A DNA stretch of 64,000 nucleotides from Piezodorus guildinii (taxonomy: Eukaryota; Arthropoda; Insecta; Hemiptera; Pentatomidae), in NCBI GenBank assembly GCA_023052935.1, contig CM041294.1:10712414-10776413 (forward strand), in the 5' to 3' direction. The translations under genes and the position numbers were made by a program. Below the pieces are notes generated by a model. It did not search any database and was not told where the DNA came from. It saw only the letters and a list, made by a program, of their open reading frames with translations. Below are positions 1,690 to 64,000 of the stretch, piece after piece (within the stretch, counting starts at the first letter, position 1; the number at the start of each line of letters is the position of its first letter).

Positions 1690-1696
1690 ATGAAAA

Positions 1697-2690
1697 TCTG
1701 GTGCACTTAACTCCGTTTTTAGATCAATTTATAAATTTTCAAGAAGAGAAATGATAAAAGATTGAAGAATTAACTATCGTACTTTGAGTTTCAATAAAAA
1801 CATATATTTTATTAAATAATCTATTACATTCACATGAATCAGTTAGTTTTATTGGCTTTCCTTAGCTCTCAATTAAATTTTACAATTTTGTTTATAAGAT
1901 AAAAAAAATTCTAAAATATTTAGCTTTCCAACGGTCTATTAATGTTCGTGTGTTCGAAAACACAAAATATGTTTGCATGTTTCCCCTTTAGTTAGATATC
2001 AAAGTCGTTCATCTTATATATATTTTTTTTGTTTTTTTATCCATGGTTAATTTTTCCAAATCTACAAAATTAAAAGTACTTTAGAGGAATAAAAAATTAC
2101 TGCATTTAAGCCCTGTCAGACTATTTTAATCAGAACGAAACCTATGGTATTAAACTCAAGGTTGATACAAGGAGTTAAATCAAAATCGTAAAGCGGTTTT
2201 TAAAAATATTTTATAATGGTCCAAAATGCTTGGTGTAATGTGGTTTGCCAATTTCGATGAAAAAGTTGCATTACCATCTCAAGCAAATACGTTTCTAAAG
2301 TATGAAATTTAAGTTTTATAAAATTCTTGACAATCCTCCGAGGCGTCTGAAAAGATGGCCTCGAGACCTTCTAGTTTAGAAAAGTTACAGGAGTGCTGCC
2401 ATTGGGTAGTTCTTCTTTAAGTCTGTATCACGCCATTTATCTTTTGTCATCTATATATTTACTTGTTGTACTTTGAAGTACAGTTGTAAATTTCAATAAA
2501 TGATGTTATAATAATATATTTTTTTTTTTATAAAACTTATCGTTTTCGATATAGACTAATCACACACACACACCTTTTTGCGGGACTTGGTCATTTGGAT
2601 TCAAGAGACCCTAAAACGTGTATTTCCGGTGACAACTCAAATTAGAGAAAAATTATATATATTACGTAAATATAGGTAAGTGAAAGTAAA
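1697..2690 (+). mobile_element. Helentron-like interspersed element, copy H1
   Basis: It begins TCTGGTGC after a run of A and ends GGTAAGTGAAAGTAAA. It carries the family landmarks: GCATTTAAGCCCTGTCAGAC, the CA-repeat followed by CCTTTTTGCGGGACTTGG, and AAAACGTGTATTTCC. It is split by a LINE 3' fragment at 2324-2525. Confidence 0.7.
2324..2525 (+). mobile_element. 5'-truncated LINE 3' end inserted in H1
   Basis: The sequence matches the 3' untranslated region of the LINE at 2849-3295 (shared TCCTCCGAGGC, GTACAGTTGTAAATTTCAAT). It ends in a T/A-rich tail. TTTTATAAAA at 2314-2323 and 2526-2535 is a clean target-site duplication, and joining the flanks restores the H1 consensus. Confidence 0.8.
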
Positions 2691-2848
2691 TTTCTTTAAT
2701 AATAAAGAAATCATTATGACGTAATAAATTGTATTGCTATTTACAACATTAGTACATGTAAAAAGAGGAAAATATATATAAGAAAGATGGAGTTTGTTTC
2801 TTTTCTAATCCAGTGGTAGCACTCCAATTAGGATTTGAAGTCACAAAG

Positions 2849-3295
2849 CTCAGTTACACAACCATTATTAGACATATCTGGACATATGGCATAGAGCTAT
2901 GGGGCTCCACTAAACCATCGAATTCCTCCCGCATCCAATCCTTGCAATCCAAAATCCTTCGACAAATCCTAGACGCTCCTTACTTTGTTGCCAACAAACT
3001 CATCCATAGAGACCTGAATATCCCACTCGTTGCAGAAATCGCCAAAAAGATACACCTCCTTTCATTCCAAATTACCAGCCCATACAAACCCGCTTGTCCG
3101 TATCCTCTCATCGACACATAATCCCGATAATCCTCCGAGGCATCTGAAAAGGCGGTAGCCTCGAGACCTGCTACCGCTGGGTAGATTCTTCTCATGTCCT
3201 TTTCAAGCCAATTGTCTGTAAATATCTCATTTACTTATTGTACTATGTAAATTGTACAGTTGTAAATTTCAATAAAATAATTTTAAAAAAAAAAA
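2849..3295 (+). mobile_element. 5'-truncated Jockey-like LINE (C-terminal part of RT frame and 3' UTR)
   Basis: The frame encodes IIRHIWTYGIELWG and LQSKILRQILDAPYF, the C-terminal region of the reverse transcriptase frame seen at 9647-11494. AATAAA and an A-tract follow. AGTCACAAAG occurs at 2839-2848 and 3296-3305 as the target duplication. Confidence 0.85.
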
Positions 3296-3493
3296 AGTCA
3301 CAAAGTCCTGGGCCCATATTCTTATGACCATTATCAGGAATTGAAGGATTGGCATACAAAGATAGTTAGGTTGGAAGACAGTAACAAACGGAGCATTAAG
3401 GTCAATATGAATTAGTTTGTTCTTGACTAAGGAGAATTGAGCATTTTACGGTGGATTTAGGACTGTATGGAATCGGTATGGGAAGGCTAAAAA

Positions 3494-4360
3494 ATATTGT
3501 GCGGGGAACAAACGACTTTCACTTACCTCCGTTTTTAGAATCATTTAAATAATTTTCAAATACAGTTAGAGATAAAAATTAGTGAAACCATTAAAGAATT
3601 AATTAAATGGAATTTCTATAGAAACATGTGTTTTATTAAAAAATCTATTAGATTATTATCTAAAATAATCAGTTAGTTTTATCAGCTTTTCATCACTCTC
3701 TACTAACTTTTAAAAGTTTGTGTATGAGAAAATATTTTTTTCTAAAATCTCAAGCTTTCCAACGGTATATGATACATGTATATTACTGTTCTTATGTTTT
3801 AAAACAAAAAAATATATGTTTTCAGTTTTCTCTTTAGGTGGGTATCGAATTTATTCAATTTATATATTTACCTGTTTTTTATCAGTGGTAACAAGATAAT
3901 ATAGTTATTTTTATAGAATGGACAAAATTAAAGGTACTTTAGAAAAAGAAATTTTAAAATATTGGCATTTAAGCCCTGTCAAACCATTTTAATCCAAATA
4001 AAACCTACATGATATTAAAGCTCATTAAATTTTACATCGATATAGCGAGTTTTAACAAAATCGTTAAAACCGTTTTCGAGAAAATCGAAAAAAGGTTCAA
4101 AATGCATAGTATAAAGTAGCTCTTCTGGTAAGCCGATTTTCATGAAAAAGATTTTGTAACGTCTCGGGCGTATAGTTGTCTTAATTATGTAATTTTAGTT
4201 TCATAGGACCTACCGTTTCCGCCCGGGAGTTACCACACACACAGACCTTTTTGCGGGACTTGGTTATTTGGACTCAGGTGTGTTTCCGTTGAAAACTGGA
4301 ATTCGAAATTTTTCACGATCGCAATACTTTGTCTTAATATATATAGTAAGTGAAAGTAAA
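3494..4360 (+). mobile_element. Helentron-like element, copy H2
   Basis: It is nearly complete in structure: the left subterminal GACTTTCACTTACC, the landmark TTAAGCCCTGTCA, GCGGGACTTGGTTATTTGG, and the right end ATATATAGTAAGTGAAAG. It has no open frame. Confidence 0.75.
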
Positions 4361-5303
4361 AAGAGAAATCTGTCATTATTGTTTTAAAATTAGATTTTCT
4401 TTTTTACCATAAAGGTTAATTTAAAATGTAATGTCATATTTTACATTTTGACACTTAGGTAAAGATTATACAAATCCAAAACGTTTTAATTATTTTAAAA
4501 TCACACGTAATATCTTCAACCACTTGGGCCAACAGTCTCCTAACAAAATTATCTTCCAAATGTTTCAAATTTGGGTAATTGATTCAGCGCTTACCCTGAC
4601 AAAGTAATCATTCCAACAGATAATTGATATTTTATAATTTGTTAATCGAATTCATATATTTGTTGTTACTTTAATCAGTACCAGTCCGGTTTGGAGACTT
4701 AACCTATAAACATACAGTAGATGTTTGAATGTGCATATAATTATTGATCATTCACTACAGCCACTTGCAGATAATATATATAATTATGGCTAGATATAAT
4801 CAAAAGATCGCGGGTTCTTTACACGACTATTGCTAACTGTGTTGAGGTCAGACCTTAAGAGAAACAGGACAATTTCATCGCTGCCCGGTTCTAAGCCTGC
4901 GCTCTGTCAATTAATTTGGGCGGGGCGTTCGGATCTCATCTAGTTTTATCTTTGCTGCCAAGAAATTACTACTCATTTGGAAAATTCGCGATAATCTTTG
5001 CGATCCAATACGGCTTGTTAATTGGAAATAAAATGTTACCATATGCCATTGACCCCAATATTAATTCAATCTCGTAGGTACAACACTTTCCATTTGTTAA
5101 CGAGAAGCAGTGGCGGATCCACTACGGGAGAAGTATTTTAACACTAGAAATACGGGAACATTAACCTATATGAAAAAAGGCATGAAAGCAGTCAAAATGA
5201 CTGCATTGAGAAAAAATAACTAATGCGCAAAGAAATTTGTTTAACAGTAATTTTTAATATATTTTATATCACTTACAGTCATATAGCAAGTTATTAATAA
5301 CTA
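4361..5303. other. No gene seen
   Basis: AT-rich, unassigned. AGTGGCGGATCCACTACGGG near 5109 resembles ends of cut-and-paste transposons. AGTCAAAATGAC near 5192 resembles piggyBac-type subterminal sequence and lies beside the piggyBac relic. Confidence 0.3.
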
Positions 5304-7325: not shown

Positions 7326-8400
7326 GGTTATATTGTGTGTACGTAGATATTTATACGTTTATAAAATTAGATTATGTTGAGGACTCTGTTTTGTTATTAT
7401 TGTTTTATTTAATTGTAAAACATCGTCATCTTGTAGAGATATATCATCTTGAATTGTGCCATCGTGATCTGAATGTGAAGATATTTTAAAATATAGTCCA
7501 TATTCAAATTCATAACCTTCTAGACTGAATTCTATTGGGTTGTTTCACATGAAATGTAAAACGAAAAAGTATTCTTATATACCTGCGACAAAACATAGTG
7601 TTATATTTTAAAATACACTTAATCGACCTAAAGAAATAGATGGAATTATGTTCATAGTTTAACAATGGTCAACTTCAGCTAAAAAAATTTGTCTAACAAT
7701 CGGGAAATAATTTTCTTACGTTCATAAAAATTATTTTCGATAAATTAGCTTTCTATAATACTACTTTAACCAAAAATATTTTGGATAGGCGTAAATGATA
7801 TTTTGTTTGTAGTGATTAGAAGTAATGCTGTATAAAAAATATAACAAACAAAAAATTAATAACAAACACAGCCATCCAGGTCCACTTCATTATTTTTTTT
7901 TATGGGGGAGGAGGCAGTCACACATTGCCTGTCGTAGTAGATTTCGCAGAAGTTGGAAGTTGAATACATTTAGCAATCGTAATGAAAGGGTCTTCATGAC
8001 ACCCTAACCTCAAATTGGCCAGCCAGCGGTGATAGCTATTCCCTGGCAAAAACGGTTGACAGCTCCCCATGTTTTCTTTAGACGAGGGTAAACATTGGGC
8101 TATATATTGCCAGTCTGCCGATCGATACCTGTCCAAAGCTCATCAGAGTACACTACGTACCACGGTGACTATTTTATTAGTTCAAAAGTAATCATTATTT
8201 CAGACATATTATGGAATGTTTGTAGGTGAGTAACACTAGTAAATGTGCACACAGAGATAACCTCAGTTTCTCTTCTAAGCAAAATCAAACATTTTTTTTT
8301 TTTTTTTAATTAGTAATGAAATAAACATTGTGCTTAATAGAAATCTATATAATTAAAATGCATTTTATGTTTATGCAGTGTTTATGCTCGACGTAGCTCA
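7326..8400. other. No gene seen; one mariner-type end
   Basis: ATTGGGTTGTTTCACATGAA at about 7536-7555 equals the inverted end of the mariner at 14500-15399, but no partner end is present. A moderately GC-rich patch at 7900-8160 has short open frames in both directions and no recognisable product. Confidence 0.4.
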
Positions 8401-8405
8401 GTAAT

Positions 8406-8444
8406 GCCCTGATGATGGCACACAGGTTTGAGCCGAAACTTCGG
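8406..8444 (+). ncRNA. Hammerhead-ribozyme-like core (degenerate)
   Basis: GCC-CTGATGA-TGGC...GCC-GAAAC gives stem I 5' strand, core, stem II and core. The sequence after GAAAC is TTCGG rather than GTCGGC, so stem I and the cleavage site look mutated. Confidence 0.4.
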
Positions 8445-8984
8445 AAAAATCAAAATATTCTTAATTAAAACGACTGAATTTCATTTACTTCTACCTACGA
8501 TACTAAAATACATTTAATTTTTAAATTTCATATTTCTATAATAATATGATTAAGATATTCTTCTCAATTTAGTTTTACTAAGATTTTAATATTGACAGTA
8601 AGATCATCATGAATTTTCTTGGTATTTTAAAATATTTTCAAACAAAGTGATGTTTTAATAATATTTACAATTCTCGATATTTTATTGTCGAGATAATTAA
8701 TATATTCATGATATTAATTTTATATACAGTAAGAGGTAAGTTCTAAGACATAGTTTATCTACCATGTCTTTACTCGTTACATTTTCAACTGATTGTAATT
8801 CAATTAAATTTTAAAATAACGATATCATAAATTTCGATATTTTTTGTCGATATTAACCAGTATCGATAACGTTCACGGAAATTGATATCGATATCTTATT
8901 GTTAGTGGACAGGTATACACAGACCGCTGCGCATGCGCCAGTCTAGAGCATGTTGATAACGCGAACCGTCCCCATGGTAACGAA
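8445..8984. other. AT-rich DNA with a palindromic CpG motif
   Basis: No gene is visible. TGCGCATGCGC at 8928-8938 matches the NRF-1/erect-wing type site, just upstream of the LINE. Several GATATC/CGATAT motifs, including TATCGATA at 8861-8868, precede it. Confidence 0.3.
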
Positions 8985-9645
8985 ATCAAATAAAAAATTT
9001 TCCTACCTTTATCCCGTTGAGGCCGGTGTTCCTCAAGGCAGTGTCTTGGGACCCGACCTCTACATCCTTTACACTGCTGATATTCCTACACATCCTGATA
9101 CCTTTCTGGCAACTTTTGCAGACGAAACCGCCATCCTATCATCCAGTTCCAATCCTGAAACAGCATCCTTAAACCTACAGAGACACCTTTTCCTTATCGA
9201 ACACTGGTGTAATAACTGGCGTGTAAAGGTGAACGAAGCCAAATGTAAACACATAACCTTTACTCTTAGACGAAAATCCTGTCCGCCAGTTTATTTCAAC
9301 TCATTACCGATTCCTCTCTCAGATACAGTCCGGTATCTTGGCTTACTGTTAGACAAAACATTGACTTGGAACCCAAGAACTCAACCGACGATTAGGACAG
9401 TTATACCGACTACTCAACAGAAAATCTGAGCTTACAGTTGACAACAAATTATTAATCTACAAGACAATACTGAAGCCAATCTGGACCTACGGACTTGAAC
9501 TGTGGGGGACAGCTAAACGTACTAACATCAAACGCATTTAATCCTTTCAATCCAAAGTCCTTCGTACATACTCCTTATTATGTCTCTAACTATACCTTGC
9601 ACCACGACCTTAATGTTTCATTTATTTCAGACCTAATTCCATCCA

Positions 9646-11777
9646 TATCTGGCAGAGGACCAGGCATCCTGATGACAGGAAATCATACAATTATTATTGT
9701 AAATTAGTTAAAAATAGATTGACAACCTACAGATCCCAATCCTATAATTCCTATCTTTCCTCATTATCCACTTGTGACCATTCCCTCTGGAAAGCAACTA
9801 AAAAAATCCTTAAATACCATCATATCTCTCATCCTCTCCAACGTCATGATGGTTCCTGGGCCTCGTCAGATGAGACTAGAGCAGAGGAATTTGCTAAACA
9901 TCTTGCAAACACATTCACTCCTCATCCTGAAATTAATTCTACCCATACAGCTGCAGTTGAAGAATCCCTCTCCTCGCCGATTCCTCTCTCTTTGCCTCCT
10001 AAAGCTGTCAACCCCTCTGAGGTCAAATTCCTAATCGATAAACTTAAACCTCGAAAATCTCCTGGATTTGATCTCCTCACTTCCCAAATCATTAAAGAAC
10101 TTCCCAAAAAGGCTATAGTATTCCTGACCTACATATATAACTGCATCCTCCGAACAACCCATTTTCCTCTGATGTGGAAACACTCAACCATTATACTTTT
10201 CCTTAAACCGGGCAAACCTGTTAATCATACCTCATCCTATAGACCAATCAGCTTGCTCCCTATACTTTCCAAATTATTTGAGAAAATCCTTCTGAAACGC
10301 ATCCTTCCGTTAATCCAACTCGACAAAATCCCATCTCACCAGTTTGGTTTCCGCTCAGGCCACTCCACTGTTCACCAAGGTCTTCGAGTTGTTGACCACA
10401 TATCCTATGCCCTTGAAAGCAAGCAATATTGCACAGGTGCCTTTCTGGACATAGCACAAGCATTCGACCGGGTGTGGCACGATGGCTTGCTTTTCAAACT
10501 AAAAACCCTATTACCTCAAGCCCTATATCTAATCCTTCGATCCTACCTATCTAACCGCTCGTTTCGAGTCCGTTGTGGTTCTGAATTCTCAATTTGTTAT
10601 CCGATAGAAGCCGGTGTTCCACAAGGTAGTGTCCTCGGTCCTATACTCTACATCTTATTCACCTCAGACATTCCCACCTTACCCGAAAACTTCCTGGCAA
10701 CATTTGCCGATGATACAGCTATCCTCTCATCCCATCCAGATCCTGTTACGGCATCCTCAAACCTCCAATCACATCTCGATCTGATTGAAAAGTGGTGCAA
10801 TCATTGGCGCATCAAAGTCAATGAATCAAAAAGCAAGCAAGTCACCTTTACCCTTCGACGCAGATCCTGCCCTTTTGTCCATTTTAACTCTATTCCTCTC
10901 ACCTTTTCTGACACAGTCAAATACCTTGGTTTCCTCTTAGACAAAAGACTGACATGGAACCCCCATACTAGACTCAAACGACAAGAACTCAATCGACGAT
11001 ATGGCCAGCTATATAGACTACTAAACAGAAAATCTCATCTCTCAACGGACAACAAACTCTTAATTTACAAGACTATTCTTAAACCAATTTGGACCTACGG
11101 ACTTGAACTGTGGGGAACAGCAAAAGTTTCGAATATCAAACGTATCCAATCCTTTCAGTCTAAAGTCCTTAGAACAATAGTAGATGCCCCATATTATGTC
11201 ACCAACAAAACCTTACACCATGACCTGAATATCTCATTTGTCCTTGATCTAATCCCATCCAAATTCTCAATCTTCCATCAGAAGCTTACTCACCTTCCTA
11301 ATCCCTTGGCAAACTCCCTATCTAGTTCCAAACATCCCTATAACCCTCCTCGTAGGTTGAAGCGGCAGTGGCCCAGAGATCTTTTGTATGTGGCTCTAGC
11401 GCCCTCGCGCAGCCTCCACTGGCACTCAAGACCAGTGACGCAGCTGAATGAGAGGCGCTGGGATCTTCTGGCATTGTGCCTCGACATCCACTAGTGGATC
11501 TCGAGGTTTGATTCAGTGATCCCAGGGGCAGTTTGTAAATATTGTAAATAGGTATGAATGTGAACAAGATTGTTATTATTATTTTCTTTATAGTACTTAT
11601 TTAATTTTGTGTATATATTTTTTTCTTTTATTTGCTTAGTCTTTATTAATTTTTTTCTCTTTAATTTTATTTCCAATGTACATATGGTATGAATGATTTA
11701 TTCTATCTCTAATACTCATTGCCCAGAAGGTGGCAGATTGTATTATCTCTTAATAAAACAAATTAAAAAAAAAAAAA
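9646..11777 (+). mobile_element. Jockey-like LINE, inner copy B
   Basis: This is a 2.1 kb 5'-truncated insertion into copy A, with an AATAAAACAAATT plus A-tract tail and an 11-bp duplication of AATTCCATCCA on both sides. The intact frame suggests a fairly recent insertion. Confidence 0.85.
9647..11494 (+). CDS. Jockey-like LINE reverse transcriptase, inner copy B (5'-truncated, frame intact)
   Basis: The open frame of about 615 codons covers a linker (WQRTRHPDDRKSYNY) and then the full reverse transcriptase: SYRPISLLPILSKLFEKIL, HQFGFRSGHST, GAFLDIAQAFDRVWHDGLL with the first catalytic D, EAGVPQGSVLGPILYI, and FADDTAILSS with the catalytic DD pair. The thumb-like YLGFLLDKRLTWNP and WTYGLELWG follow. 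It copies LINE RNA into the target site by target-primed reverse transcription. The endonuclease and ORF1 are missing because the copy is 5'-truncated, so it cannot move alone. The frame is read from the junction at 9646; no start codon of its own is expected. The 3' UTR and A-tail end at 11777. Confidence 0.9.
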   Translation: MWQRTRHPDDRKSYNYYCKLVKNRLTTYRSQSYNSYLSSLSTCDHSLWKATKKILKYHHISHPLQRHDGSWASSDETRAEEFAKHLANTFTPHPEINSTHTAAVEESLSSPIPLSLPPKAVNPSEVKFLIDKLKPRKSPGFDLLTSQIIKELPKKAIVFLTYIYNCILRTTHFPLMWKHSTIILFLKPGKPVNHTSSYRPISLLPILSKLFEKILLKRILPLIQLDKIPSHQFGFRSGHSTVHQGLRVVDHISYALESKQYCTGAFLDIAQAFDRVWHDGLLFKLKTLLPQALYLILRSYLSNRSFRVRCGSEFSICYPIEAGVPQGSVLGPILYILFTSDIPTLPENFLATFADDTAILSSHPDPVTASSNLQSHLDLIEKWCNHWRIKVNESKSKQVTFTLRRRSCPFVHFNSIPLTFSDTVKYLGFLLDKRLTWNPHTRLKRQELNRRYGQLYRLLNRKSHLSTDNKLLIYKTILKPIWTYGLELWGTAKVSNIKRIQSFQSKVLRTIVDAPYYVTNKTLHHDLNISFVLDLIPSKFSIFHQKLTHLPNPLANSLSSSKHPYNPPRRLKRQWPRDLLYVALAPSRSLHWHSRPVTQLNERRWDLLALCLDIH

Positions 11778-21348: not shown

Positions 21349-24300
21349 ACACACAGATTTATTTCCGTTGAAAACTGGAATTCTAAAATGTTCACGATCG
21401 CAATACTTTCCCTTACTATATATCTCATACATAGGTAAGAGAAAGTAATAATAGTAAAAAAAAATAATTATTTAAAATTATAGCTGATGAAAGTGGTTAG
21501 ATAACTTACTATCTTTGATGAGGACAGTAACTCCTATGACCCCTCGATACTTGAGTAGCCTGTTGAAGATCTGCTCGTACTCGGTCACATTCATTTGATT
21601 TTGATGAAAAAGTTTTTATAACACCTTAGGCGTATATTTATCTTAAATATGAAATTTCAGTTTCATAGGATTATTCGTTTACGCGCGGGAGTTACCACAT
21701 CGACACAGAAACAGACACAGACACACGTACACATATATTTAACTTTGATCAGATACAACTTCAAAAATGCTAAATTAAAATTAATTGTCGACTAACTTGT
21801 TGTAATTTTTAAAGGACTTCATTTGTTCCTCTGTAGATAACTATAAGTGTGATGATTTGTTTGACATGTCTATTGATATTATCAACAACTCCACATCATG
21901 CGATAGCACACATGATACACCTCATAGTGTTGCACATCCCACAGACCTGGAGAAACGAATGGCCGCGATCCAACGAGATTAATAAAAGTTATGAAACACC
22001 TCTTTCCTTTTACCGAACGGATCTTAATATATAGCCGACCCTCCCGAACACTAAGGAACCTTGTTACGTATCCAAACATTCGTCATCGGCTAACAGCGCT
22101 GTCTTTGACTATCTAAGGGGCCTATCTCCTTGCGAGATCGATTTCAAAACGGTTCTTGTGAATACAGGAGGGTGTTGGAGGGGTTTGGAGTCGTTATGTA
22201 AGAAATTAACCTTCCTAATTTAAATTCGAAAGGAAAAGAAGATTGTCTGGTGAGGTGAGAAACGATATCTGTTTTAGTAATACAAGAAGATCAAAACATG
22301 GTTGAGGGTGCACTCATAAAAAAAAAAAGTTTCGGCCTACCTTGTGGGCCTTTTATCAAAGGTAAGAAAGACAAGATAACAACGAATACAATCAAAACAA
22401 AAAATACTAAAAATCTGGTGCGCGCAACACGCGACTTTCACTTACCTCCATTTTGTTAAAATAAATATTTAATACAGTTAGAGATAAAAACTGTTAAAGA
22501 ATTAATTACACTGAGTTTCGATAGAAACATGTCTTTTATCAAACAATCCATTATATGATTATCTACAAGAATCAGTTAGTTTTGTCCGCCTGTTATTGCT
22601 CTCAATTACATTTAATAACTATATGTATAAGATAATTTTTTTTCTCCAAAATCTTCAGCTTTTCAAAGGTATATTACTTTATTATTATTATTATTACTGT
22701 TCTTGAGTTCCTAAACCGAAAAATTACATACAATTTTTTTTTGCTTATCTGTCCTTAGTAGATTATCGTATTTGTTTCAACTTATATATTTTAACATTTT
22801 TTTATTAATTCTATTTCTCATTGAGGCCTATTGTATAACCGTTTAATTTGGTTTTACGAGTTTAAACTCTGCCGGAACGGACCTAGACGATTAGAAACAT
22901 TTCTGGACTTTCTGGACCGAGGCTTGGCGAAGAAGAAGTAGCAAAACATTTTCTAAAGCCCCAACTCTTCAAAAGAAGGTGACGGTCACTGTTTTGTGGC
23001 CTTCATTTCTTTTAATACACTACAGCTTCTTAAACCCTCGAGAAACAATCAATGCCGAATCGAATTGTAGCCAAATTAATACGATTGGCAAATTAACAGA
23101 TTGGCAATAATGAAGTTTTCTTTGGTAAATCGGTCCATTTGGTAAATGAAAATGCCCGGTCACATGTTTCACGTGTGACGTCATTGGAGTTTGGATTTGA
23201 AACTCTGCCACATCTGTCCTATTCTTCGGACCTCACGCCTACAGTTATGATTTTATTTTACACCTAGGCATGATTTTATCATACTTAGGCAGCAAACAAT
23301 ATTTTGGATATATGGAATTAGATAACGCATTTCTGGAGTTTATCAATTCTAAAGATGAGAAATTCTCCTCGGAGGAAATTGAAAAGTTACCTAACATGTT
23401 GGCAGAAGTGTATTAACATCAGTGGTATAGATTTTAATTAAACAAAACAGTTGTAAACCTTTCCTTTTTTTTTAAACTAAAATCGTGCGTTATTGTTATT
23501 GGGAACCCTGTACATGTTGTAAATCCAGAATGAGATATATATATTTTTTAATCTACAGTTTCTTCATTCATATAATATTACTTTTAGAAACTCGATAGCT
23601 TTTGACCGGAATTAGTTTGATTTTTGTGCAAAATGTTTACACAACCGTACCTCGCGTTGCATACATTGCAATGAGGGATCGGATGAAATGTCATGTGGGT
23701 GAAATCCGCCCATTCTATATTCTACAAATTTTCAATAATAACGATAGTTACAACTGTAATTTATATAAAAGCAAAAAGACTTTGCTCTAAATACACCTTG
23801 AACAGAATAAATGACCATCGAATAAAAATAATCCCACTGCCTGTTATTAGGCACTTGTGTGAACAGAAATGATTCATTCATTTACTATTTATTTGTAAAC
23901 ACGGTATAGCGGGAAATATCAGTGTTAAGGGTCTTGCCAACTAATAATAAAAAGTTGAAGCACTGGAATATTCCAAACTTTTATCCACCTAAATTGGTGA
24001 TTTTGCCCACTGTGCGTCACTGGTAGAATGTTAGAACTGCAAGCTATGTCCTGAGTGTATATAATATAAAGTAGTGAATACATATGATTCATATTTATTT
24101 ATTTGACTCCAGACATTTATGGCTCCTGCTACATAGTTGCATAATCTGATGACCCTAGTGGCATAAAACGATATGAATTAAAAAAAAAACTTAAAATTGT
24201 GTTGCAGATTTCAGATGATAACAAGGCAGAGGTCATCTAAGTAACGATTAGGGTTGAATGAAAGGAGTGAGGGAGTCTACGATTGTGGCTGCATGAATTT

Positions 24301-28974: not shown

Positions 28975-31900
28975 ACTTTGTAGTATACGCATAATTGCTT
29001 GCTTATTGACTAAACCTTAGATAACTTAAATTATCAAAAGTCGAGAAAAAATCAACATTATTTTTAAATACTAATTATTTTTAAATACTGAAGGAATTAG
29101 TCCGGGTGGCGGTCATTAAATGAAACAACTGAATAGTTTCAACTATTTTATTGTTTGCCAACGTTTCGACCCCCATTGTGGGTCATCATCAGGACTAAAA
29201 AGATACAAAAAGGATACATTTAAAATAAGATTAAAAATACTATTCTTAAAAAAATAACTATTGCGCTAGAGAATGTCAATATTATAACATAAAAAGAACT
29301 AGATGTGTAAAGAAATCAATTAATTAAATTACAATGATAAAGGTATACTAATGAGAGCTATACAGACCAGATAATGACTAAAGATAATGTACAAATATAT
29401 AAGAAAAAATTACATGAAATAAAAAACATTAAAAAAATAGAGTACAGTGGAGATACGTACCGTCTGGTAGGCGAGTGGAAATTAGGTACAATTTGGTAAT
29501 ATGGAATATAGGCAAGTAGATAGGAATGTACGTACAAAAGGTTGGGTAAAATGGAAAATACGTACCACATTTCTAGACGGGATTTTTGGTATTTTTAAAT
29601 ACCATTCGAAATCGGCCAGTCCCTGCTCAACATTTTTCATTTTTGTGATTTTTTTTCCATCCCTTCTTGAATAAAAAACCGTAGATAAAATATTATTCTG
29701 GCTAATAATTTTGATGTTGCAGCCATTTTAAGTCAGCTTCACGGCTGAAAACATGTATTGGGAAAATCATTCTGATTCCGTAATTTTGTAGATATCATTT
29801 TAAAACAAAAACTAACAATAAGTTAATGAGATGCTTTGCATTTTTTGTTTCTAGAACTTATTACCTAAATAATGAAAAAATTGGTTTAAAAAAATCTCGA
29901 AATGAGGTAAAAAACGAGACTTTTAGCGGGTTAAAAATATAGAGAGAAAAAGGAAATGAAATATGAAATAGAAAAATGAAATATTTTTAGCTTGCATTAT
30001 GATCGGTACATTGATAAATAATTTTTCGATTTACTTTGATTCTAATCCTTGATCCTATGAATATATTTCTATAGATATCCTAAGATAGATTTGCGAAGCT
30101 TGAGTAAGTGGTGTTGCTTTAAAAATTATTACAAAAACTAACAATAAGTTAATGAGATGCTTTGCATTTTTGTTTCTATTGTAGAACTTATTACCTAAAT
30201 AGTAAAAAAAATGGTTTAAAAAACTCTGGAAATGAGGTAAAAAACGAGACTTTTAGCAGGTTAAAAATATATAAATATATAAAGAAAAAGAAAATGAAAT
30301 ATGAAATAGAAAAATGAAATATTTTTAGCTCGCATTACGATCGGTACATTGATAAACAATTTTACGATGTACTTTGATTCTAATCCTTGATCCTGTGAAT
30401 ATATTTCTCTAGATATCCTAAGATAGATTTGCGGAGCTTGAGTAAGTGGTGTTGCTTTGATCTTTACTTTTTACTTTGGCCTAGAAGCTGGGCTTAGCAA
30501 TGGCAGAGGAAACAGAGCGGAAAAATCACTGTCACTGCTATTTTATATCAATCCAACTTCAAACAACACTCAAATATTGATTTCTTATATTTTTTAGATA
30601 ATATTAAAAGTAGCAACGTGGTGTAGAGGGTAGGCCACTTGGCTACTTTTTTCTAGTCTACGGGTTCGAACCCGGCTGTGGCATAATTATTTATTAATTA
30701 TTGACATGGATATGTGTATATATTACATTCCCCCTAAACAATGTATCAGATACGACACGCTTTAGCTCTATTGGTATACGATCAAAAGTTTTACGATAGT
30801 TTCCTCGTATATATACATATTTATATTACATTATTCGCAAGGATCTATAAGAAATGTAAATGATAAAATTACCAATGTACCATTGTATATTTCCTTATCT
30901 TATAGTAGATTAATTTAACTCAATCCCTCCTAGACTGAGAAAAACAATAGGTTATATACACAGAGATATCTATTATCTATTGTTTTTCCCGTTAAAAGTA
31001 AGTATGCGCCATTAGAGATGATACCACTGGGGAATGCAGAAGGTCAAACAACTAGTAATTGCGGAGCTTGTACCCCGCCAGTATAATTGAGTTGATGGCT
31101 GATATATGATATGATATGATTATATGAAGATAGAATTCCTAGAGTTAATAGGCGCTAAACCGATTAGTATGGCGAGGAGTCGATGGGAGGATCGTCTCAG
31201 GTATGTATTCGGGGGCTTGTGCTTGGGTTTGGATGATGATCATGGAGGAAACATTTGGTTGTATCGGCATCCAAGTTTGTGGTTCGCTAAGCCTGTTATT
31301 ATTGTTGTTTTTTTTCAGTGAGGAGGAAATACTGGTACCAGTTACTACTTCCACTTACCTTTGTTTATTTGTTTAACGTCACTTTATGCTGCTATGGCTA
31401 ATCGGACGATGCTACAGTGGGAGTCCTAAATTTTGCCTATCCAGGTTTTATTAGTAACGTCCCCTCCGAAGGACGGCGTAACTGAGGATTTTTTACTCCA
31501 ATTAAAAAATCCTAGGACCACCTGCGGGTTTGAACCCGTGACCTTTAGCATGGGAGGCTGTTACGCTAGCCACCCAGTTTTATGTTCACAAGTTATCCCT
31601 ACCCACTTACCTTTGTATGAAACATAAGGGAAAGTATTGCCATCGTGAAAATTCCAAAATTTCAATTCCAGTTTTCAACAGAAATACATGCTTTTGGGTA
31701 CGCTGAGTGTCCAAATGACAATGCCCCGCAAAATGGTCTGCATGTATATGTGTGTGTGGTAAGTCCAGTAAGAAAACGAAAAGTCTTATGAAACTGAAAT
31801 TTCATATTCAAGAAAACTATACGCCTGAGATGTTACTGCAACCTTTTCATCAAAATCAGCTAACCAGAAGATGCGCTTTATGTACTTTCCACTTCTTTAC

Positions 31901-34900
31901 GATTTTCTCAAAAACGGTTCTGACGATTATGATTAAGCTCTCTATATCGATATAAAATATAATGGACTTTAATATTATGTAGGTATCATTGTGATTTAAA
32001 TAGTCCGTCAAGGCCGAAATGCCGATATTTTAAGTTGTCTTCCTCTGAAATATACTTAATTTTGTAGATTCTATAAAAATAACCCTATCATCGTTTTAGC
32101 ACTGATAAAAACAGATAAATATGTATAATTCAATGAATTCGATGAATTTTATAAAAAATTAAAGAAGAAAGGAGCAAACATAATTTTTAATGTAATTTTG
32201 TATTTTAGAAAATAAGAACAGTAATATACACGTATACTATACCATTGGAAAGCTAAAGATCATCGAAGAAATATTATTTTATACAAATAATTGTAAAAGC
32301 TAACAGAGAGTGATGACAAGCCGATAAAAATAACCGATTTTCGTAGATAATAATATAATATGAGGAAGATGGTTGGGGGTGCGGTCATAAATTAGAAAAC
32401 ACATTTAAAATAAGTGTTATTTTAATTATGTGCCAACATTTCGGCCTACAATGTGGGCCTTCATCAGGGCTAAAATAAACAAGATAACAACCAATGTAAT
32501 ATTACAATATATTATATAATTAAATATTACATTGGTTATCTTGTTTCTTTTAGCCCTGATGAAGGCCCACATTGTAGGCCGAAACGTCGGCACATAATTA
32601 AAATAACACTTATTTTAAATGTGTGTTTATAATTTTTGACCGCACCCTCAACCATCTTCCTCATCTAATTTCTCAACGGTCAACAAAACTCCATCATTAA
32701 TATATAATACATTATTATTTAAGAAAACACATTTTTCTATTGAAACAAGAGATAATTAATTCTTTAACAATTTATTTTCATCTCTAAAAGTATTTAATAA
32801 TTGTTAAATACATTATAACAACGAAGGTAAGTGAAAGTCGTGTGTTGGGCGCGCCACATTTTATTTCCTAGTTATAATGAAGCTATTTCATCACAATATT
32901 TTATAACATATCATACGGTTGAGGATTTATAATTATGCCTGTTTATTGCAGCTAATAAGGAAGGGAATCCATTGGGTAAGGTACCGAGCTATTAACTTCC
33001 CAATCTTAGATTGGAGACTGTATATGAGAGGTTATTATGCAATCTGAGTCTTGTGCCGACTTGGTGATCGGCTGACCCTACGAGGGTTCACCTAGCCTCA
33101 ATAAAGTGGCTCCTCTAACATAGATGGTAGCAATGCTGAATGCTGATTCGATTTCGGCTAAATCACAACCTTGCACAAACATCGCCTAAGAATAAATGCG
33201 TTCTTTACACAGTACGGTGCCCATTATCAGTGATTTTGTCTATTACATCCAATATCATACTACTAACAAAGAATGTTTGAAGGTCGTGTCGAAATGAAAC
33301 GTTAGACTCTAGATAACTGACTAGAAACATCTCTACAACCCAAAAAAGGAAGCTTATTACTATCCTCACAAACGCACGAACTTCTACAGACATACGCTTG
33401 TTAAGATTAAATCGAAATTACAGACGCCCGTTACGTGATGACTAACTAAAGCCTACTTTGCAAATCCGACTTGCACAAACATCGAGATACTCAGCTTATA
33501 CCCCCCGCGCACTAAATCAACTTAATAACCATCCAATTAAAACATTCCTGATAATGAAGCCGTACTATAACTATGGCATAGGGACAGGCAGGCAGAGCTG
33601 AGAGAAGACAGGCAGTGGAGATAAGGCAGTAAATTATAGCCGCTGCTCTGCGGTCAAGGTCCTACACGGGTTGGCGCAACACTTTCCCCAGAACACACCC
33701 TCCGCAGTCCTCAAGTCTCACCTTGGTTCTTCCAAGTCTGCGCCGTCGGGTGAGGACACAGCTCGGGACAAGGGAACGCACTCAGCTGGCTATTGGGTTC
33801 GCTATCGAAGGAATCTTTATCTTCTCGGCACAATCCGAAATTCGTTTACGAGGACGTGCGCAGGATTTTGGTAAGGGAGACTCTAGCCATGTCAAGCCTA
33901 CTTTCGTTACGGAGGTACAAGTGTGTTGAAAATATAACTTTTTTTTTTTCTAACACTACTTTATAGTTAAAAAATAAATAAATAAAACTCATGATCTGCC
34001 AAGTTTTTTCCCCAATTTGGGTACCCAATTTAAAGAGACTGGGTATGCCCCAGGAGGGTCTTCATACCCTAGGGTTGCCCCCCCCCTCACCCCTTCCGGC
34101 TCTATTAGCAGCATAAATAATATTGGGCCACAGCCGGGATTCGAACCCAGAACCCAGAGAACAGTAGACTAGTGCTCTATCCACTATAATACGCCGCTCT
34201 CTCTAAAATTATGGTAAGAAGAATACAATAACATTAATGACCAAATATCGAGGGGCCAAGGAGGTATCGCCTCTTATCCTATAGTTTTATTTATATATTT
34301 TTTTCTCTCTTCTTTACAACTTTGTGATTGTTTTTTTAAATGTATTCTGACTAGATATACACTATTGTAACATATTTATTATTATTAACGGACTAAATCC
34401 TAGAATTAAGTTTATTTTCCTATTTCTATTCAGGATGTTGCATAACCGTCTCGTCATATTGTGAGACAAGATACCTACTACTGTGAAACAAAAAAGTTCT
34501 TATGACCCTTAGCCCGATTCTAAACGGTTACAAAGGAAAATAAATTTTTTAGTTTTCTGCTGTTATCAATAGTTTATACCAGAAAAACTCAAATATATCT
34601 ACTAGTTATGCACGCACAGAAAAACAAGTGCTACCAAATGAAAAAAGGAAAAAATTCCCATGAGGTTAAGAAGCCAAACTTCAAAATGAGAAAGTAATTT
34701 TCACACAATGTCATGCAGAAAATTAAATTTTAATATTTTTATAAAAACATTCGGACATTTCATAAAACTGTTGCTCTTCTATTGTTAGGTTATAAATCTT
34801 CCGGATCTCAGAAAAACTTCTTCATTTAATTATGTTTAAAATGGTGCAGAACAAACCTACCTTGAAAAATCAACTAAGGATGCGAGGAAGCAAGAATTAA

Positions 34901-48430: not shown

Positions 48431-50075
48431 TATATAGCTTTTTTCAGTCAAATTCATAATTTTTTCAGTCAATTTCATAATTTCTTGTACCCATTTTATA
48501 AAGTTAATTTAATGAGGTTTTGCTACCAAGAACTTAAATTTTTATTAAATCTCGTTGTTGTTTATCCATTTATCGTCACTTTATGTTACTGTGCTTAATC
48601 CGACGGTGCAGCGGGAGTCCTAAGTTTTTCCTATCCAGGTTTACTCTTAAGTAAACCTGGGTAGGCAAAACTTAGGGATCTTTTACGAGTTCCACTTATT
48701 AAACCTTTTAAGAGTCATCTGTGGTGCACAAATATAGAAGGATCTGCTGGTTTTAGACTTGCGACCTTAAGCATAGAAGGCTGTTATGCTAGCCACTACT
48801 CCACAGGTGACCCTAAATGCATTCAACAAGGTGTTTGAATCTTCCGGGTTTAAATACGTGACTTTGGACATATTAATCTTTAACTCCTTGCTGAATACAT
48901 CCAGGGTCACCTGTGGATTAGTGGCTAGCATAACAGCCTCTTTTAAAGGACGAAATAACCAAGAATTTTTACTCCCTAAAAGCAAATATAGGGCCATCTG
49001 ATAGGTATGAACTAGTGATCTAGTGGATAAAAGGATGTTATGCTAGCCACTGCACCACAGGTGACCCTCGATGCATTAAAAAAGAATGTTTAAATCTGCC
49101 GGGTTAGAACCCGTGACCTTAGACATATTAATCCTTAACACCTTTTTGAATGCATAAAGGGTCACCTGTGGAGTAGTGGCTAGCAAAACAGCCTCTTTTA
49201 AAGGACAGAATAACCATGGATGTTTACTCCCTAAAAGGAAATATAGGGCCATATGCTTGTTTTGAACTTTCAAAACGGTGTTAAGGATTAATATGTCTAA
49301 GGTCACAGTTTCAAACCCGGCAGATTTAAACATTCTTTTTTAATGCATCGAGGGTCACCTGTGGAGTAGTGGCTAGCATAACATCCTTCTATCCCCTATA
49401 TCGCGAGTTCATACTTGGCAGATGGCCCTATGTTTGTTTTTAGGGAGTAAAAATCCTTGGTTATTTCGTCCTTTAAAAGAGGCTTTTATGCTAGCCACTA
49501 ATCCACAGGTGACCCTGGATGTATTAAGCAAGGAGTTAAAGATTAATATGTCCAAAGTCACGTGTTTAAACCCGGAAGATTCAAACACCTTGTTGAATGC
49601 ATTTAGGGTCACCTGTGGAGTAGTGGCTAGCATAACAGCCTTCTATGCTTAAGGTCGCAAGTCTAAAACCAGCAGATCCTTCTATATTTGTGCACCACAG
49701 ATGACTCTTAAAAGGTTTAATAAGTGGAACTCGTAAAAGATCCCTAAGTTTTTCCTACCCAGGTTTACTTAAGAGTAAACCTGGATAGGAAAAACTTAGG
49801 ACTCCCGCTGCACCGTCGGATTAAGCACAGTAACATAAAGTGACGATAAATGGATAAACAACAACGAGATTTAATAAAAATGTTAAGTTCTTGGTAGCAA
49901 AACCTCATTAAATTAACTTTATAAAATGGGTACAAGAAATTATGAATTTGACTGAAAAAAATATATGAATTTGACTGAAAAAATTATGAATTTGACTGAA
50001 AAAATTATGAATTTGATTGAAAAAATTATGAATTTGACTGAAAAAATTATGAATTTGACTGAAAAAAGCTATATA
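48431..50075. mobile_element. Foldback element FB1 built from inverted SINE-A heads with 21-bp repeat arms
   Basis: The ends TATATAGCTTTTTTCAG and CTGAAAAAAGCTATATA are inverted. Inside each end lie tandem 21-bp units (core CAGTCAAATTCATAA): two on the left and about six on the right. The next inward parts (GTTAATTTAATGAGGTTTTG, SINE-A tail and body) are inverted copies of each other. The centre (about 48780-49640) holds seven tRNA-like heads (GGTCACCTGTGGAGTAGTGG) in both orientations. There is no transposase. Confidence 0.85.
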
Positions 50076-50936: not shown

Positions 50937-50954
50937 AAAGCGTAGTTGAGAAGA

Positions 50955-52004
50955 ATGCCGACAGAAGACTACAAAGAAGCCGACGAAAACGAGGACGAGG
51001 ATCTGTCTAGGAGGCCGATACCGCTCTACCAGATCCTCCCCACTCCCATCCGCAAGAGGATTAAGGCCTTGAAGAAGTTGCAATTCCAGACCATCCAGCT
51101 GGAGGCCAAGTTCTTCTGCGACGTCCACAAGCTCGAAGGCAAGTACAGCAAGGCCTTCGCGCAGCTGTACCAGAAGAGAGAGAACATCGTCAAGGGCACC
51201 GTGGAGCCCACTGATGAGGACTGCGACTTCAACGAAGGGTACGACACCCCGGACGACGAGGAGCCCGTCATCAAGGAACTGCGGAGCAAGCTGACCATCA
51301 CCAAGCTCGTGGAAGACGGGGCCACCGGGATACCAGAGTTCTGGCTCACGGTCTTCAAGAACATCGACATCCTCAACGACATGATCCAGTCCCACGACGA
51401 GCCCATCCTCCGCCACCTCATCGACATCACCTCCTCTCTCCGGGACGACGAGCGCATGGGCTTCGTCCTCCACTTCCACTTCTCCCAGAACCCCTACTTC
51501 ACCAACACCGTCCTCACCAAGGAGTACCAGATGAAGTGCGCCCCTGACCCGGAGAGCCCTTGGACCTTCGAGGGCCCAGAGATAATCGGAGCTTCCGGGT
51601 GCACCATCAACTGGAACAAGGGGATGAACGTGACGGTGAAGACTGTGCAGAAGAGGCAGAAGCACAAGTCCGGAGGAGCAGTGAGAACCATCATCAAGAC
51701 CGTCCAGAACTCGTCCTTCTTCAACTTCTTCACCCCGCCGACGATCCAGGAGGACCAGGAGGGCACTGAAGAGATCCAGGAGTTGCTGGAGAACGACTAC
51801 GAGATCGGGAGCTTCATCCGGGAGAAGATCATCCCGCACGCCGTCCTCTACTACACGGGCGAGGCGGTGGACATCGAGACGGAGGAGGAGATGGAAGAGG
51901 ACGAGGAAGGTCGTGACAACGAGGACGAGTCGGAAGAAGGAGAGTCCCAGGGGAAGCAGGACTCGGAGGAGGGCAGCGCGGAGGGGGAGACTGACGACGA
52001 GTAG
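50955..52004 (+). CDS. Nap1: Nucleosome assembly protein 1 (NAP family histone chaperone), single coding exon
   Basis: The 349-residue protein covers the whole NAP fold. The N-terminus is acidic; a helical dimerisation region follows (IRKRIKALKKLQFQ, then EAKFFCDVHKLEGKY). Next comes the central earmuff domain with FWLTVFKN, GFVLHFHFSQNPYF and the hallmark SSFFNFFTPP. The acidic tail of about 50 residues is rich in E and D. NAP1 proteins chaperone H2A-H2B and shuttle between cytoplasm and nucleus. The length is close to the usual 350-400 residues and there is no internal stop. The start is the first ATG in frame; the open frame extends only a few codons further upstream. Animal Nap1 genes normally have several coding introns, so an uninterrupted frame suggests a retrocopy, or a lineage that lost its introns. 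The codons are GC-rich, unlike the flanks. No poly(A) tract or target duplication remains visible. Confidence 0.93.
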   Translation: MPTEDYKEADENEDEDLSRRPIPLYQILPTPIRKRIKALKKLQFQTIQLEAKFFCDVHKLEGKYSKAFAQLYQKRENIVKGTVEPTDEDCDFNEGYDTPDDEEPVIKELRSKLTITKLVEDGATGIPEFWLTVFKNIDILNDMIQSHDEPILRHLIDITSSLRDDERMGFVLHFHFSQNPYFTNTVLTKEYQMKCAPDPESPWTFEGPEIIGASGCTINWNKGMNVTVKTVQKRQKHKSGGAVRTIIKTVQNSSFFNFFTPPTIQEDQEGTEEIQELLENDYEIGSFIREKIIPHAVLYYTGEAVDIETEEEMEEDEEGRDNEDESEEGESQGKQDSEEGSAEGETDDE

Positions 52005-58610: not shown

Positions 58611-58613
58611 TTT

Positions 58614-58653
58614 GCCGACGTTTCGGCTAACATATGTGAGCCATCATCAGGGC
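58614..58653 (-). ncRNA. Hammerhead-ribozyme-like core
   Basis: The reverse strand reads GCC-CTGATGA-TGGCT...AGCC-GAAACGTC-GGC. Stem I (GCC/GGC), stem II (GGCT/AGCC), both core strands and a GTC triplet are intact. The surrounding Penelope-like end is not otherwise preserved. Confidence 0.6.
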
Positions 58654-58718
58654 AGAAATTAGCAATGGCAAGAATATACTTTAACTTAAAAAAATGCTTA
58701 ATAAGGATAAGACAAGAG

Positions 58719-58752
<34 letters not shown>

Positions 58753-59247
58753 TGGAACTTGGATCAAGGCAAACAGGAAGTGTTATCACACAGACTATCA
58801 AATTATCCTAAATATATTATTACAGTATTGTTAATAGTAGTTATTTATTATATTTAGTAGAATTTTAAGCCCGCCATAATTGTTTTTATTATTTTTGTTG
58901 TATGGAGGGAAAGATCATTTTTTCCCCTGTCGGACCGCCACTATAGGTTATATCTGAATAATGCAAATTTTTCTTTTTCTTTTCTTACTAAGTGAATTTA
59001 TTAGAAATTCTGGTATCTATTTATGGCACAATTATGTACATAAAAAAGTCTCTTCCTTAAAAAAAAACTTTCTATTTGGTAAATGAAGGTAAGGAACAAA
59101 AAAGTCAATATGTTTTCTGTGGAAGAGCAACGGATGTTACAAGATGGATGTATCTTCTTCTTGGGCGTTATAATGTGGATAATACTATGTCTATTATTTT
59201 ACAGCCGAGAAGTTAATGCCGAATCCAGTCATCACAACACCTAATTA
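58654..59247. other. No gene; 29-base poly(T)
   Basis: A T run at about 58722-58750 may be the complement of a retroelement tail. No frame was supported. Confidence 0.35.
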
Positions 59248-59610
59248 TGCAGAAACTTAATTTATTTATTGTTTGCCAACGTTTCGGCTTGAATTTAGGC
59301 CATCTTCAGGGGCGATATAAGTTTTAAAATATAGACATAGATTTAGAAAGAAAAGAATTTTTATTTTTCAAAATTACAGTAAATACAAATAAAAATTTAC
59401 AGATTACAAAATAAAATAACATTATTTAAATTTTTAAACCTAAAATCAGACGCTTTAAATCTATTAATAAAATCATTAATACAATTAATATTAAATTTTA
59501 AAAATAAAATCAGATGATTCTAGGATATAGGCCGAAACGTTGGCACAAATAAATTAAGTTTCAGGTAAATTGAGTATTTTGATGACTGCACCCAGAATCA
59601 ACTTCTGGAT
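59248..59610. mobile_element. Inverted pair of Penelope-like ends
   Basis: AAACTTAATTTATT...TTTGCCAACGTTTCGGC at 59252-59288 is inverted at 59531-59566. The left arm (minus, 59275-59313) has CTGAAGA in place of CTGATGA. The right arm keeps only GCCGAAACGTTGGC. The terminus TGATGACTGCACCCAGAATC matches the other family ends. Confidence 0.65.
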
Positions 59611-62745: not shown

Positions 62746-62955
62746 TAAATATTCCGTTTTATTTATTTATTTATTGAAAAATAATTAGTTTAATTAAAAT
62801 TATGACTTTTTTAATAATTTTGGCATATCATATCATGTTTTTTTGTTTTGTTTTTAGATATTTGATATCAAATTCTGTTTTTTACGAACTAATATTTAAA
62901 AAAATATTTAGTTTTTAAAATAGTTGTTGATTTTGAATTTTTAGAGGGGAGGGAT
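62746..62955. other. AT-rich spacer
   Basis: Nothing recognised between the minisatellite and the satellite. Confidence 0.4.
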
Positions 62956-64000
62956 GGTTTTTTGGGAATAATTAATGTGTTTTCGGGTATTATAATTACG
63001 TTTTTCGAGATGTCTTTTTAATCGCTCGCGTGCATATTAACTCGCATTTACTTTTAATGTTTTTGATTGATATAGGGATTAATTAATGTGTTTTCGGGTA
63101 TTATAATTACGTTTTTCGAGCTGTATTTTTTATCGCTCGCGTGCATATTAACTCGCATTTACTTTTAATGTATTTTATTGACATAGGGATAAATTATCGT
63201 GCGTTCGGGTGGTTATGATTACGTTTTTCGAGCTCTATCTTTTATCGCTCATGCGTATTTCAACTTGCATTTACTTTTAATGTTTTTTATTGATATGGGC
63301 ATTAATTGTTGTGCTTTCGGGTAGTTATGATTACGTTTTTCGAACTGTATTTTTTATTGCTCATAGGTATTTCAACTCGCATTTACTTTTAAAGTTTTTT
63401 ATTGATATAGGAATTAATTAATTGTGTTTTCGGGTATTATAATTACGTTTTTCGAGATGTATTTTTTATCGCTCGCGTGCAAATTAATTCGCATTATTTT
63501 TAATGATCTTTATTGATATAAGGATTGATTAATGTGCTTTCGGGTGGTTATGATTACGTTTTTCGAGCTGTATTTTTTATCGCTCATGCGTATTTCAACA
63601 CGCATTTACTTTTAATGTTTTTTATTGATATAGGATTAATTAATGTGCTTTCGGGTGGTTATGATTACGTTTTTCGAGCTGTATCTTTTATCGGTCATGC
63701 GTATTTCAACTCGCATTTACTTTTAATGTTTTTTATTGATATAGGGATTAATTAATGTGCTTTCGGGTGGTTATGATTACGTTTTTCGAGCTGTATCTTT
63801 TATCGTCATGCGTATTCAACTCGCATTACTTTTAGTTTTTTATTGATATAGATAATTAATGTCTTTCGGGTTATGATTACGTTTTTCGAGCTGTATTTTT
63901 TATCGCTCATGGATATTTCAACTCGTATTTTTTTTAGTATTTATGATTTAGGATTAATTATTGTGCTTTCGGGTGGTCATGATTATGTTTTTGATTGATA
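62956..64000. repeat. Satellite with a unit of about 112 bp, at least 10 copies, running off the window
   Basis: TTACGTTTTTCGA recurs with the first A of TACG at 62998, 63109, 63221, 63333, 63445, 63556, 63667, 63779 and 63879, and as a variant (TTATGTTTTT) at 63985. Most spacings are 111-112 bases. Two variants exist: TATTATAATTACG with CGCTCGCGTGCATATTAA, and GGTTATGATTACG with CTCATGCGTATTTCAAC. Confidence 0.95.

Follow-up and report, generated by a model that had tools for sequence, protein, structure and literature searches.

The hammerhead-like motifs of the window, i.e., the whole stretch of 64,000 nucleotides analyzed here (G000:C3:10712414-10776413), are best read as parts of the ends of endonuclease-bearing Penelope-like elements (EN+ PLEs). 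Spliced sense RNA of these elements would be copied with priming on both strands of the target, an exon joined to itself would give rise to tandem arrays, and cleavage of the RNA as dimers would be possible; we give this reading a probability of about 0.85. Hammerheads in PLEs are of an already known kind, and the initial annotation was right to regard the motifs as Penelope-like ends with minimal hammerheads: full elements of the GACCC family carry the motif, a tail, a frame with reverse transcriptase (RT) and GIY-YIG parts and a second motif. What is new here is the architecture, namely the position at a splice site, the spliced head-to-head copies and the arrays of exon units, and it may be partly in print. 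In the literature searched, no earlier report of a PLE hammerhead at a splice site, of spliced head-to-head copies or of exon-unit arrays was found; part of this may be contained in Cervera and De la Pena (2014) or in Lunse (2017).

Hammerhead-like motifs in the window

The GGCC-family motif at 32553..32591 (+) scored 62.7 bits (E 4.5e-14) with covariance model R1, which was built from alignment A2 (14 motifs, all from loci outside the window). Its stem I pairs GCC with GGC (32553-32555/32589-32591), the core occupies 32556-32562 and stem II GGCC lies at 32564-32567/32577-32580; cleavage is predicted after C32588. Directly 5' of the motif is the 3'-splice-site-like sequence TTTCTTTTAG. The inverted partner, a GAAATGTTGGC variant of the same family, is located at 32429..32473 (-; 58.8 bits, E 4.4e-13) and is referred to as 32467-. 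A GACCC-family motif was found at 29154..29198 (29192-; 67.4 bits, E 2.6e-15), and a spliced copy of the GGCTC family, with its leader exon joined after G8406, at 8403..8448 (8409+; 43.3 bits, E 4.7e-9). The other two motifs are a GGCTC-like one at 58611..58656 (-; 57.9 bits, E 7.8e-13) and one with CTGAAGA at 59272..59316 (59309-; 36 bits, E 3.8e-7). Two sites had been overlooked by the initial annotation: a decayed GGCC-family motif, TTGATAAAAGG..GGCCGAAAC, with a worn 3'-splice-site region at 22326..22352 (-; R1 23.3 bits, E 7e-4), and the weak 3' half of a motif at 59505-59547 (+; R1 E 0.19).

The six sites claimed earlier were all found in place and are hammerhead-like. R1 recovered each of them (E 2.6e-15 to 3.8e-7), and a descriptor (CTGANGA, one A/T, at least three stem II pairs, GAAA, NTH and at least two of three stem I pairs) matched six times in the window and not once in any of 200 dinucleotide shuffles. 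The Rfam covariance-model hit that the annotation had sought did not appear: a scan of the window gave no hit at gathering, and no hammerhead family matched even with E allowed up to 10. Since a model made outside the window recovers all six motifs, we read this silence as Rfam lacking the stem-III-less form. The strongest Rfam hits below threshold, MIR841 and mir-2513 at 32414-32609, are not microRNAs; they are the palindrome itself.

The core CUGANGA ... GAAA ... NUH is present in all six motifs, with TTC as NUH in 8409+. CTGATGA, described as common to all six, was seen in every copy except 59309- with its CTGAAGA; position 7 of the hammerhead core is free. Likewise, GAAAC followed by GTC or GTT and GGC holds for all copies apart from 8409+, which reads GAAAC-TTC-GGA. 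The canonical hammerhead core has no extra A/T ahead of stem II. In the six window copies stem II is not flush on the core, one extra A/T being placed between CTGANGA and the stem, and only three flush stem II pairs are left in 8409+ and 59309-. The motif monomer has no stem III. ACGU alone could pair between two copies, and it deviates in two copies of the window (8409+ and 32467-).

For alignment A1 (14 distinct motifs, window copies included) two-sided changes were found in six of the eight pairs, which was equalled by 0/500 shuffles. Of its cells 87.4% pair, compared to a shuffled mean of 75.3% (equalled by 0/500), and pairing fell to 15.7-42.3% when the partner was slid. A2, with motifs from other loci only, was weaker than A1, with two-sided changes in two of eight pairs (equalled by 257/500 shuffles); 89.3% of its cells were paired, and paired cells together with the covariation score were equalled by 1/500. 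The compensated stem II variation reported from the window was thus confirmed with the window copies and found weaker without them, and random substitution in stem II, named as refuting, is not what the pairing in A1 and A2 shows. The paired variation favors an RNA function, short of proof, because the motif families are few and share ancestry. Folds of the six window motifs were mostly unremarkable, with z-scores from -0.45 to -2.73 (the latter for 58611..58656), and in some of them the core pairs with the CGUC/CGUU side, which is an inactive shape for a single copy.

The genome scanned comprised 1,203,173,040 bases in 434 contigs; judging by a NAP1-like frame of the window that is 97% identical to a protein of Nezara viridula, the host is probably a stink bug, either this species or a close one. 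The pattern CTGATGAN{6,30}GAAAC had 37,343 matches (18,713 + 18,630) vs. 1,605 for the reversed pattern (793 + 812). The tail of one family, searched as a 40-mer with at most two mismatches, had 5,554 + 5,539 matches, and its control 0. Sixteen pattern matches on viral contigs were judged by eye to be chance resemblances without four flush stem II pairs.

The parent element and the splice site in front of the motif

PLEs of the same genome were found to contain an RT-GIY-YIG frame of 991-994 aa flanked by two such motifs. The GACCC-family element of locus L119 has a leader, a GT..AG intron at 342-615 (274 nt, GTACGT..TTTTTAG), exon 2 from 616, the motif at 618, the tail at 696, an open frame at 698-3679 (994 aa) and a second leader-intron-motif-tail set at 4264-4637. 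Locus L120, of a sister subfamily, has the same plan and a frame of 991 aa. Leader, 3' splice site and motif are found on both sides of the frame in L119 and L120, i.e., as direct pLTRs, and the long frame has its first ATG 137 nt past the motif start. A search of the genome for the ORF start gave 143 matches (142/1,956 candidates scored), some falling within open frames of 990-1,001 aa.

The 994-aa frame has 14 homologues at E <= 0.001 (7,986 candidates scored), with a best identity of 35% in the multiple alignment. The precomputed Pfam domains PF00078, PF28514, PF26215, and PF01541 occur in various of these homologues, PF28514 in all 14 and PF00078 in 10. Both the RT motif YxDD (Y.DD) and the GIY-YIG residues C..C, Y.G.T, R, H, E, and N were invariant in seven aligned proteins including that of L119. 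On the L119 frame itself, GIY-YIG PF01541 was found below the cut-off (20.2 vs. 22.6 bits), Pfam gave no RT hit, and a PDB sequence search with the frame gave 0 hits. We classify the full elements of the GACCC family as EN+ PLEs. The GGCC and GGCTC families are tied to PLEs by motif, tail and layout, the coding element being known for the GACCC family only. PLEs may carry an extra tail of 30-40 bp and hence have two 3' end points. Among the few 3' end points inspected, one end in L025 was found at CTTCAG and the other about 41 nt further. A target-site duplication (about 8-10 bp expected of PLEs) was not evident by eye at 32355-32669, the sole site inspected.

Two PLE families of the genome were found first through GIY-YIG, in L057 (G000:C1:83780500-83789000) and L058 (C7:2037000-2046900), with frames of 952-961 aa. 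Their hammerhead cores are broken (CAGAAGA in L057 and TTGAAAA in L058). The relic motif of L058 is located directly after TTTTCAG, and L058 sits within a tandem head-to-head palindrome with a spacing of 3.3 kb.

The RNA 5' end and splicing were read from genomic copies. The window contains a solo unspliced pLTR of the GACCC family at 29088..29583 (-; the 5' limit is approximate, by eye), read in comparison with L119 and composed of pre-leader sequence, leader exon, intron, motif and a tail ending ...TTCCTTCAG. Leader exon 1 (29461..29483, -; 23 nt, AATTTCCACTCGCCTACCAGACG, with AGTTTCC... in other copies) was placed with leader-joined copies, and the intron of 266 nt directly 5' of the motif (29195..29460, -; GTACGT...TTTTTAG) is missing from those copies. 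Unspliced GACCC copies, 29192- among them, have the leader exon A(A/G)TTTCCACTCGCCTACCAGACG followed by GTACGT, and TATCTTTTTAG precedes the motif; in other GACCC copies the leader was found joined exactly, as ...CCAGACG|CCCTGATGA. The leader-joined 25-mer had 1,410 copies in the genome (712 + 698, at most one mismatch; control 0). For the GGCTC family, a 65-nt GTAATA..TTAATAG intron comes after ...CTCAGTAATG in L043 (unspliced); the same exon end is joined directly to CCCTGATGA in the spliced copies L031-, L043:557 and window 8409. The leader exon of the latter lies at 8377..8406 (+, start approximate) and has the same end as the exon that precedes the intron in L043.

In these two families, both of which have spliced and unspliced copies, the first two exon nucleotides after the 3' splice site precede the putative ribozyme. 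The G of stem I is supplied either by the upstream exon or by the AG of the intron. Copies of the GGCC family, 32553..32591 included, come after TTTTAG, and this family is probably a third with the motif at the exon start. Introns in PLEs were reportedly described by Arkhipova in 2003. The 5' borders of 221 GACCC motifs were sorted, taken from 63 genomic stretches and the window with array loci picked, so that the counts are not genome proportions: 218 belonged to four expected types (154 short-donor, 31 leader, 19 unspliced, and 14 long-donor) and three were other. As many copies are spliced, sense RNA is a likely template.

Head-to-head pairs and tandem exon arrays

The GGCC-family motifs 32553..32591 and 32467- belong to a head-to-head inverted pair at 32355..32669, with tails outward and 5' parts meeting mid-way; its arms are 96% (32396-32488/32535-32627) and 89% (32355-32398/32626-32669) complementary. 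In a second pair at 59208..59606, also with tails outward, 59309- faces the 3' half at 59505-59547 (+), and the arms 59208-59267/59547-59606 are 77% complementary. Neighbors within 1 kb were head-to-head vs. tail-to-tail in the ratio 19:0 for the family-tail list (100 places), 13:0 for the motif-pattern list (61 places), and 30:0 for the list of leader-joined 25-mers (100 places), the three lists being the first places on C1 and overlapping one another. At longer range a single opposite pair was counted per list: the ratio was 14:1 in the 61-place list for neighbors up to 3 kb apart (the opposite pair being +-), and 27:1 in the 100-place list for neighbors up to 10 kb apart.

Arms were surveyed in 33 loci; L089 and L107 gave no arm, L097, L110, and L117 one each, and L105+ was cut by an indel. 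Among the leader-joined arms, 21/23 start at -57/-58 from the cleavage site with the same AGTTTCC; this is where the ruler ends, and the letters beyond differ by eye from the upstream sequence in L119. In 26/30 pairs the middle contains, in addition to two complete leaders, another -1 to 22 nt, and both arms are leader-joined in 10/19 of the pair loci surveyed. Arms of one pair start at different places in L098, L100, L106, and L107, and short palindromic fillers were seen at some junctions (AGCGCT in L102).

In L108 (G000:C1:17074690-17075760) the 5' end of a leader copy is joined inside the PLE ORF, as if the enzyme had jumped RNA. L122 (G000:C1:32286820-32287300) contains leader-joined copies about 175 bp apart with the same truncation point beside ORF-start sequence.

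At the ORF-start loci, units that each bear a single motif follow one another, with as many as 17 unit intervals on one strand, and many of these arrays are mirror-image. Unit lengths were mostly 293-297 or 338-341 bp. The L119 exon measures, from the 3' splice site, 296 nt to donor CTCCAG|GTGACT and 340 nt to donor AAAAAG|GTAACA, and that of L120 294 and 338 nt; in each element the two donors lie inside the ORF. Array intervals with L119-type loop letters were 296 in 46/72 cases and 340 in seven, while those with L120-type letters were 294 in 40/54, 293 in 11, and 338 in two. Because unit lengths equal exon lengths in two subfamilies, we read the array unit as the exon joined to itself. In a complete element some 3.6 kb lies between the borders so joined; two pLTRs of one element already permit one such join. 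Exon repeats of this kind may come from back-splicing or from splicing across elements in tandem, or RNAs so formed may have been copied again later. A 67-aa frame in the 296-bp units is not a separate small gene: it represents the initial coding portion of the PLE ORF.

Units within one array differ little (locus means 0-0.9%, largest pair 2.4%) compared to units of different loci (mean 4.7%, minimum 0), and such near-identity favors repeated copying of one template. The L094 array has units in the order short, long, long, short, short, which weakens an origin from one single-exon circle alone. The array ends inspected in L025 fall in the tail region.

That the arrays are simply satellite DNA expanded through unequal exchange fits the near-identity of units within an array, and we consider it very improbable, since the units match spliced-exon lengths in two subfamilies, joining borders that are far apart in the element, and since arrays are often mirror-image, occur at many separate places and end, where inspected in L025, in the tail region. 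An origin of the inverted pairs by self-priming on antisense RNA or a hairpin, as proposed for bdelloid Penelope elements (PMC3846280), is a somewhat better candidate, and still an improbable one. Head-to-head pairs with palindromic junctions are the layout given there, and the palindromic fillers agree with it. However, antisense RNA would retain introns, yet 31/221 motifs are leader-joined at GT/AG borders, and often on both arms of a pair. The unequal arm starts in four loci are unlike a copied-back hairpin, and the Penelope-like protein of the anole, PAc (Poseidon of Anolis carolinensis), cleaves and extends both DNA strands in vitro (PMC11167929).

Possible cleavage and proposed mechanism

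Minimal PLE hammerhead variants that cleave as dimers were reportedly described by Cervera and De la Pena in 2014 and by Lunse, Weinberg and Breaker in 2017. The motifs here resemble them in the stem-III-less type I form, the palindromic GAAACGTY and the tandem layout. Two copies of GAAACGTY may pair via ACGT as a shared stem III, and repeats in one RNA could therefore cleave as dimers; a review (PMC6466107) describes this for PLE dimers. Leader-joined arms read through the motif. Of the array-arm 5' ends, 7/25 fall 3-8 nt upstream of the scissile bond (binomial P 2.4e-6, set up on 24 arms vs. the 25 arms listed, two of which, in L112, are shortened by an indel). These ends were set aside as cleavage ends, since a stop at stem II is an equally good explanation given the offset of 3-8 nt. 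In one case, L121, a leader copy abuts a piece made up of leader and ribozyme, which ends in ...GAAACGTT + GAC; this junction is suggestive of a captured 5' cleavage product.

According to the preferred reading, the RNA of a GACCC pLTR would start at AGTTTCC with a short leader exon, which an intron separates from an exon starting 2 nt before the stem-III-less motif; 3' of the motif come the tail, where reverse transcription would start, and the RT-GIY-YIG frame. Mature, often spliced sense RNA would serve as template. On each of the two strands of a single target break, reverse transcription would begin in the tail and proceed as far as the RNA 5' end. The two run-off cDNAs would then meet head-to-head, tails outward, as at 32355-32669 and 59208-59606. 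Joining of an ORF-internal donor to the 3' splice site ahead of the ribozyme would give exon repeats and, from these, tandem arrays resembling retrozymes, in which two motifs may pair via the palindrome ACGU as a shared stem III with dimer cleavage as a possible outcome. The motif, the identity of the GACCC PLEs, the splice borders in two families, the leader 5' end, the head-to-head layout and the exon-length units are the sequence-based parts of this reading; both-strand priming, dimer cleavage and the mode of exon repetition we infer.

A tentative extension, to which we give rather less than even odds, is that the PLE yields retrozyme-like elements by splicing. The hammerhead exon would be back-spliced (or cut by the hammerhead and ligated), and the resulting circle (294-296 or 338-340 nt) would be copied in repeated rounds by the PLE enzyme from both sides of a break and inserted as mirror-image arrays; L121 would be a captured 5' cleavage product. 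If so, splicing, stem I and self-cleavage could all make use of one RNA junction thanks to the ribozyme at the 3' splice site, and there would be a route from autonomous PLEs to animal retrozymes.

A resemblance by chance, with no ribozyme ancestry, would fit the lack of a hammerhead match in Rfam and is hardly credible, as the full motif is absent from all 200 shuffles, genome matches far outnumber those of the reversed pattern, and the 16 viral-contig matches lack four flush stem II pairs by eye. The motif may instead be kept mainly as a protein-binding, coding or splice-site sequence with ribozyme activity dispensable. We regard this as unlikely and nevertheless as the most serious of the competing explanations. 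It would accommodate the extra core base, the missing stem III and monomer folds mostly little better than shuffles, as well as the broken cores of L057 and L058; in the anole, the motif did not cleave in the absence of protein and dead mutants were still inserted (PMC11167929). On the other hand, the three abundant families have retained most of the core letters, with stem II varying in a paired way.

Compared with Penelope/Poseidon and PAc, as presented in PMC11167929 and PMC3846280, the elements are alike in the RT and GIY-YIG frame, the direct pLTRs, the hammerhead at the border of pLTR and ORF, the tail, the inverted head-to-head copies and the retained introns. In PAc the start codon is located at stem II with the cut site 26 bp on (PMC11167929), which would fit the same extra core base. 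They differ in that hammerhead matches here number tens of thousands with many copies spliced, and in the placing of the hammerhead, 2 nt into an exon after a 3' splice site and well ahead of the first ATG; no mention of this position was found in the parts of the two papers examined.

Animal non-LTR retrozymes are described (PMC7229834, PMC7761336) as non-coding, with canonical hammerheads and no motif naming a parent, PLEs being the suspected mover. The arrays resemble them in tandem units of about 300 bp (150-450 bp being the span expected of retrozymes) with one type I hammerhead each. In contrast to the canonical type I hammerhead of retrozymes, the units carry the minimal PLE motif only, and in contrast to their non-coding nature, the units are a PLE exon including the open start of its ORF. 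In two subfamilies the exact length of an exon links the retrozyme-like arrays to the element they come from. What minimal hammerheads do in PLEs is, in the words of PMC7761336, 'still a mystery', and PMC3846280 leaves open whether sense or antisense, spliced or unspliced RNA is the PLE template. With tens of thousands of motif copies in the genome, both the role and the type of template become testable by counting, and start and jump points of the copies map RNA ends in the germ line.

The window was found to contain several other features. A 626-aa frame at 9614-11494 (+) resembles, by eye, a LINE (jockey-type) reverse transcriptase. An inverted repeat of 613 nt at 48538-49881 is 97% complementary with 118 nt between the arms, and a tandem repeat of about 111 bp is located at 62879-63935. 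At 50946-52004 (+) there is an uninterrupted NAP1-like frame of 352 aa with 97% identity to a Nezara viridula protein.
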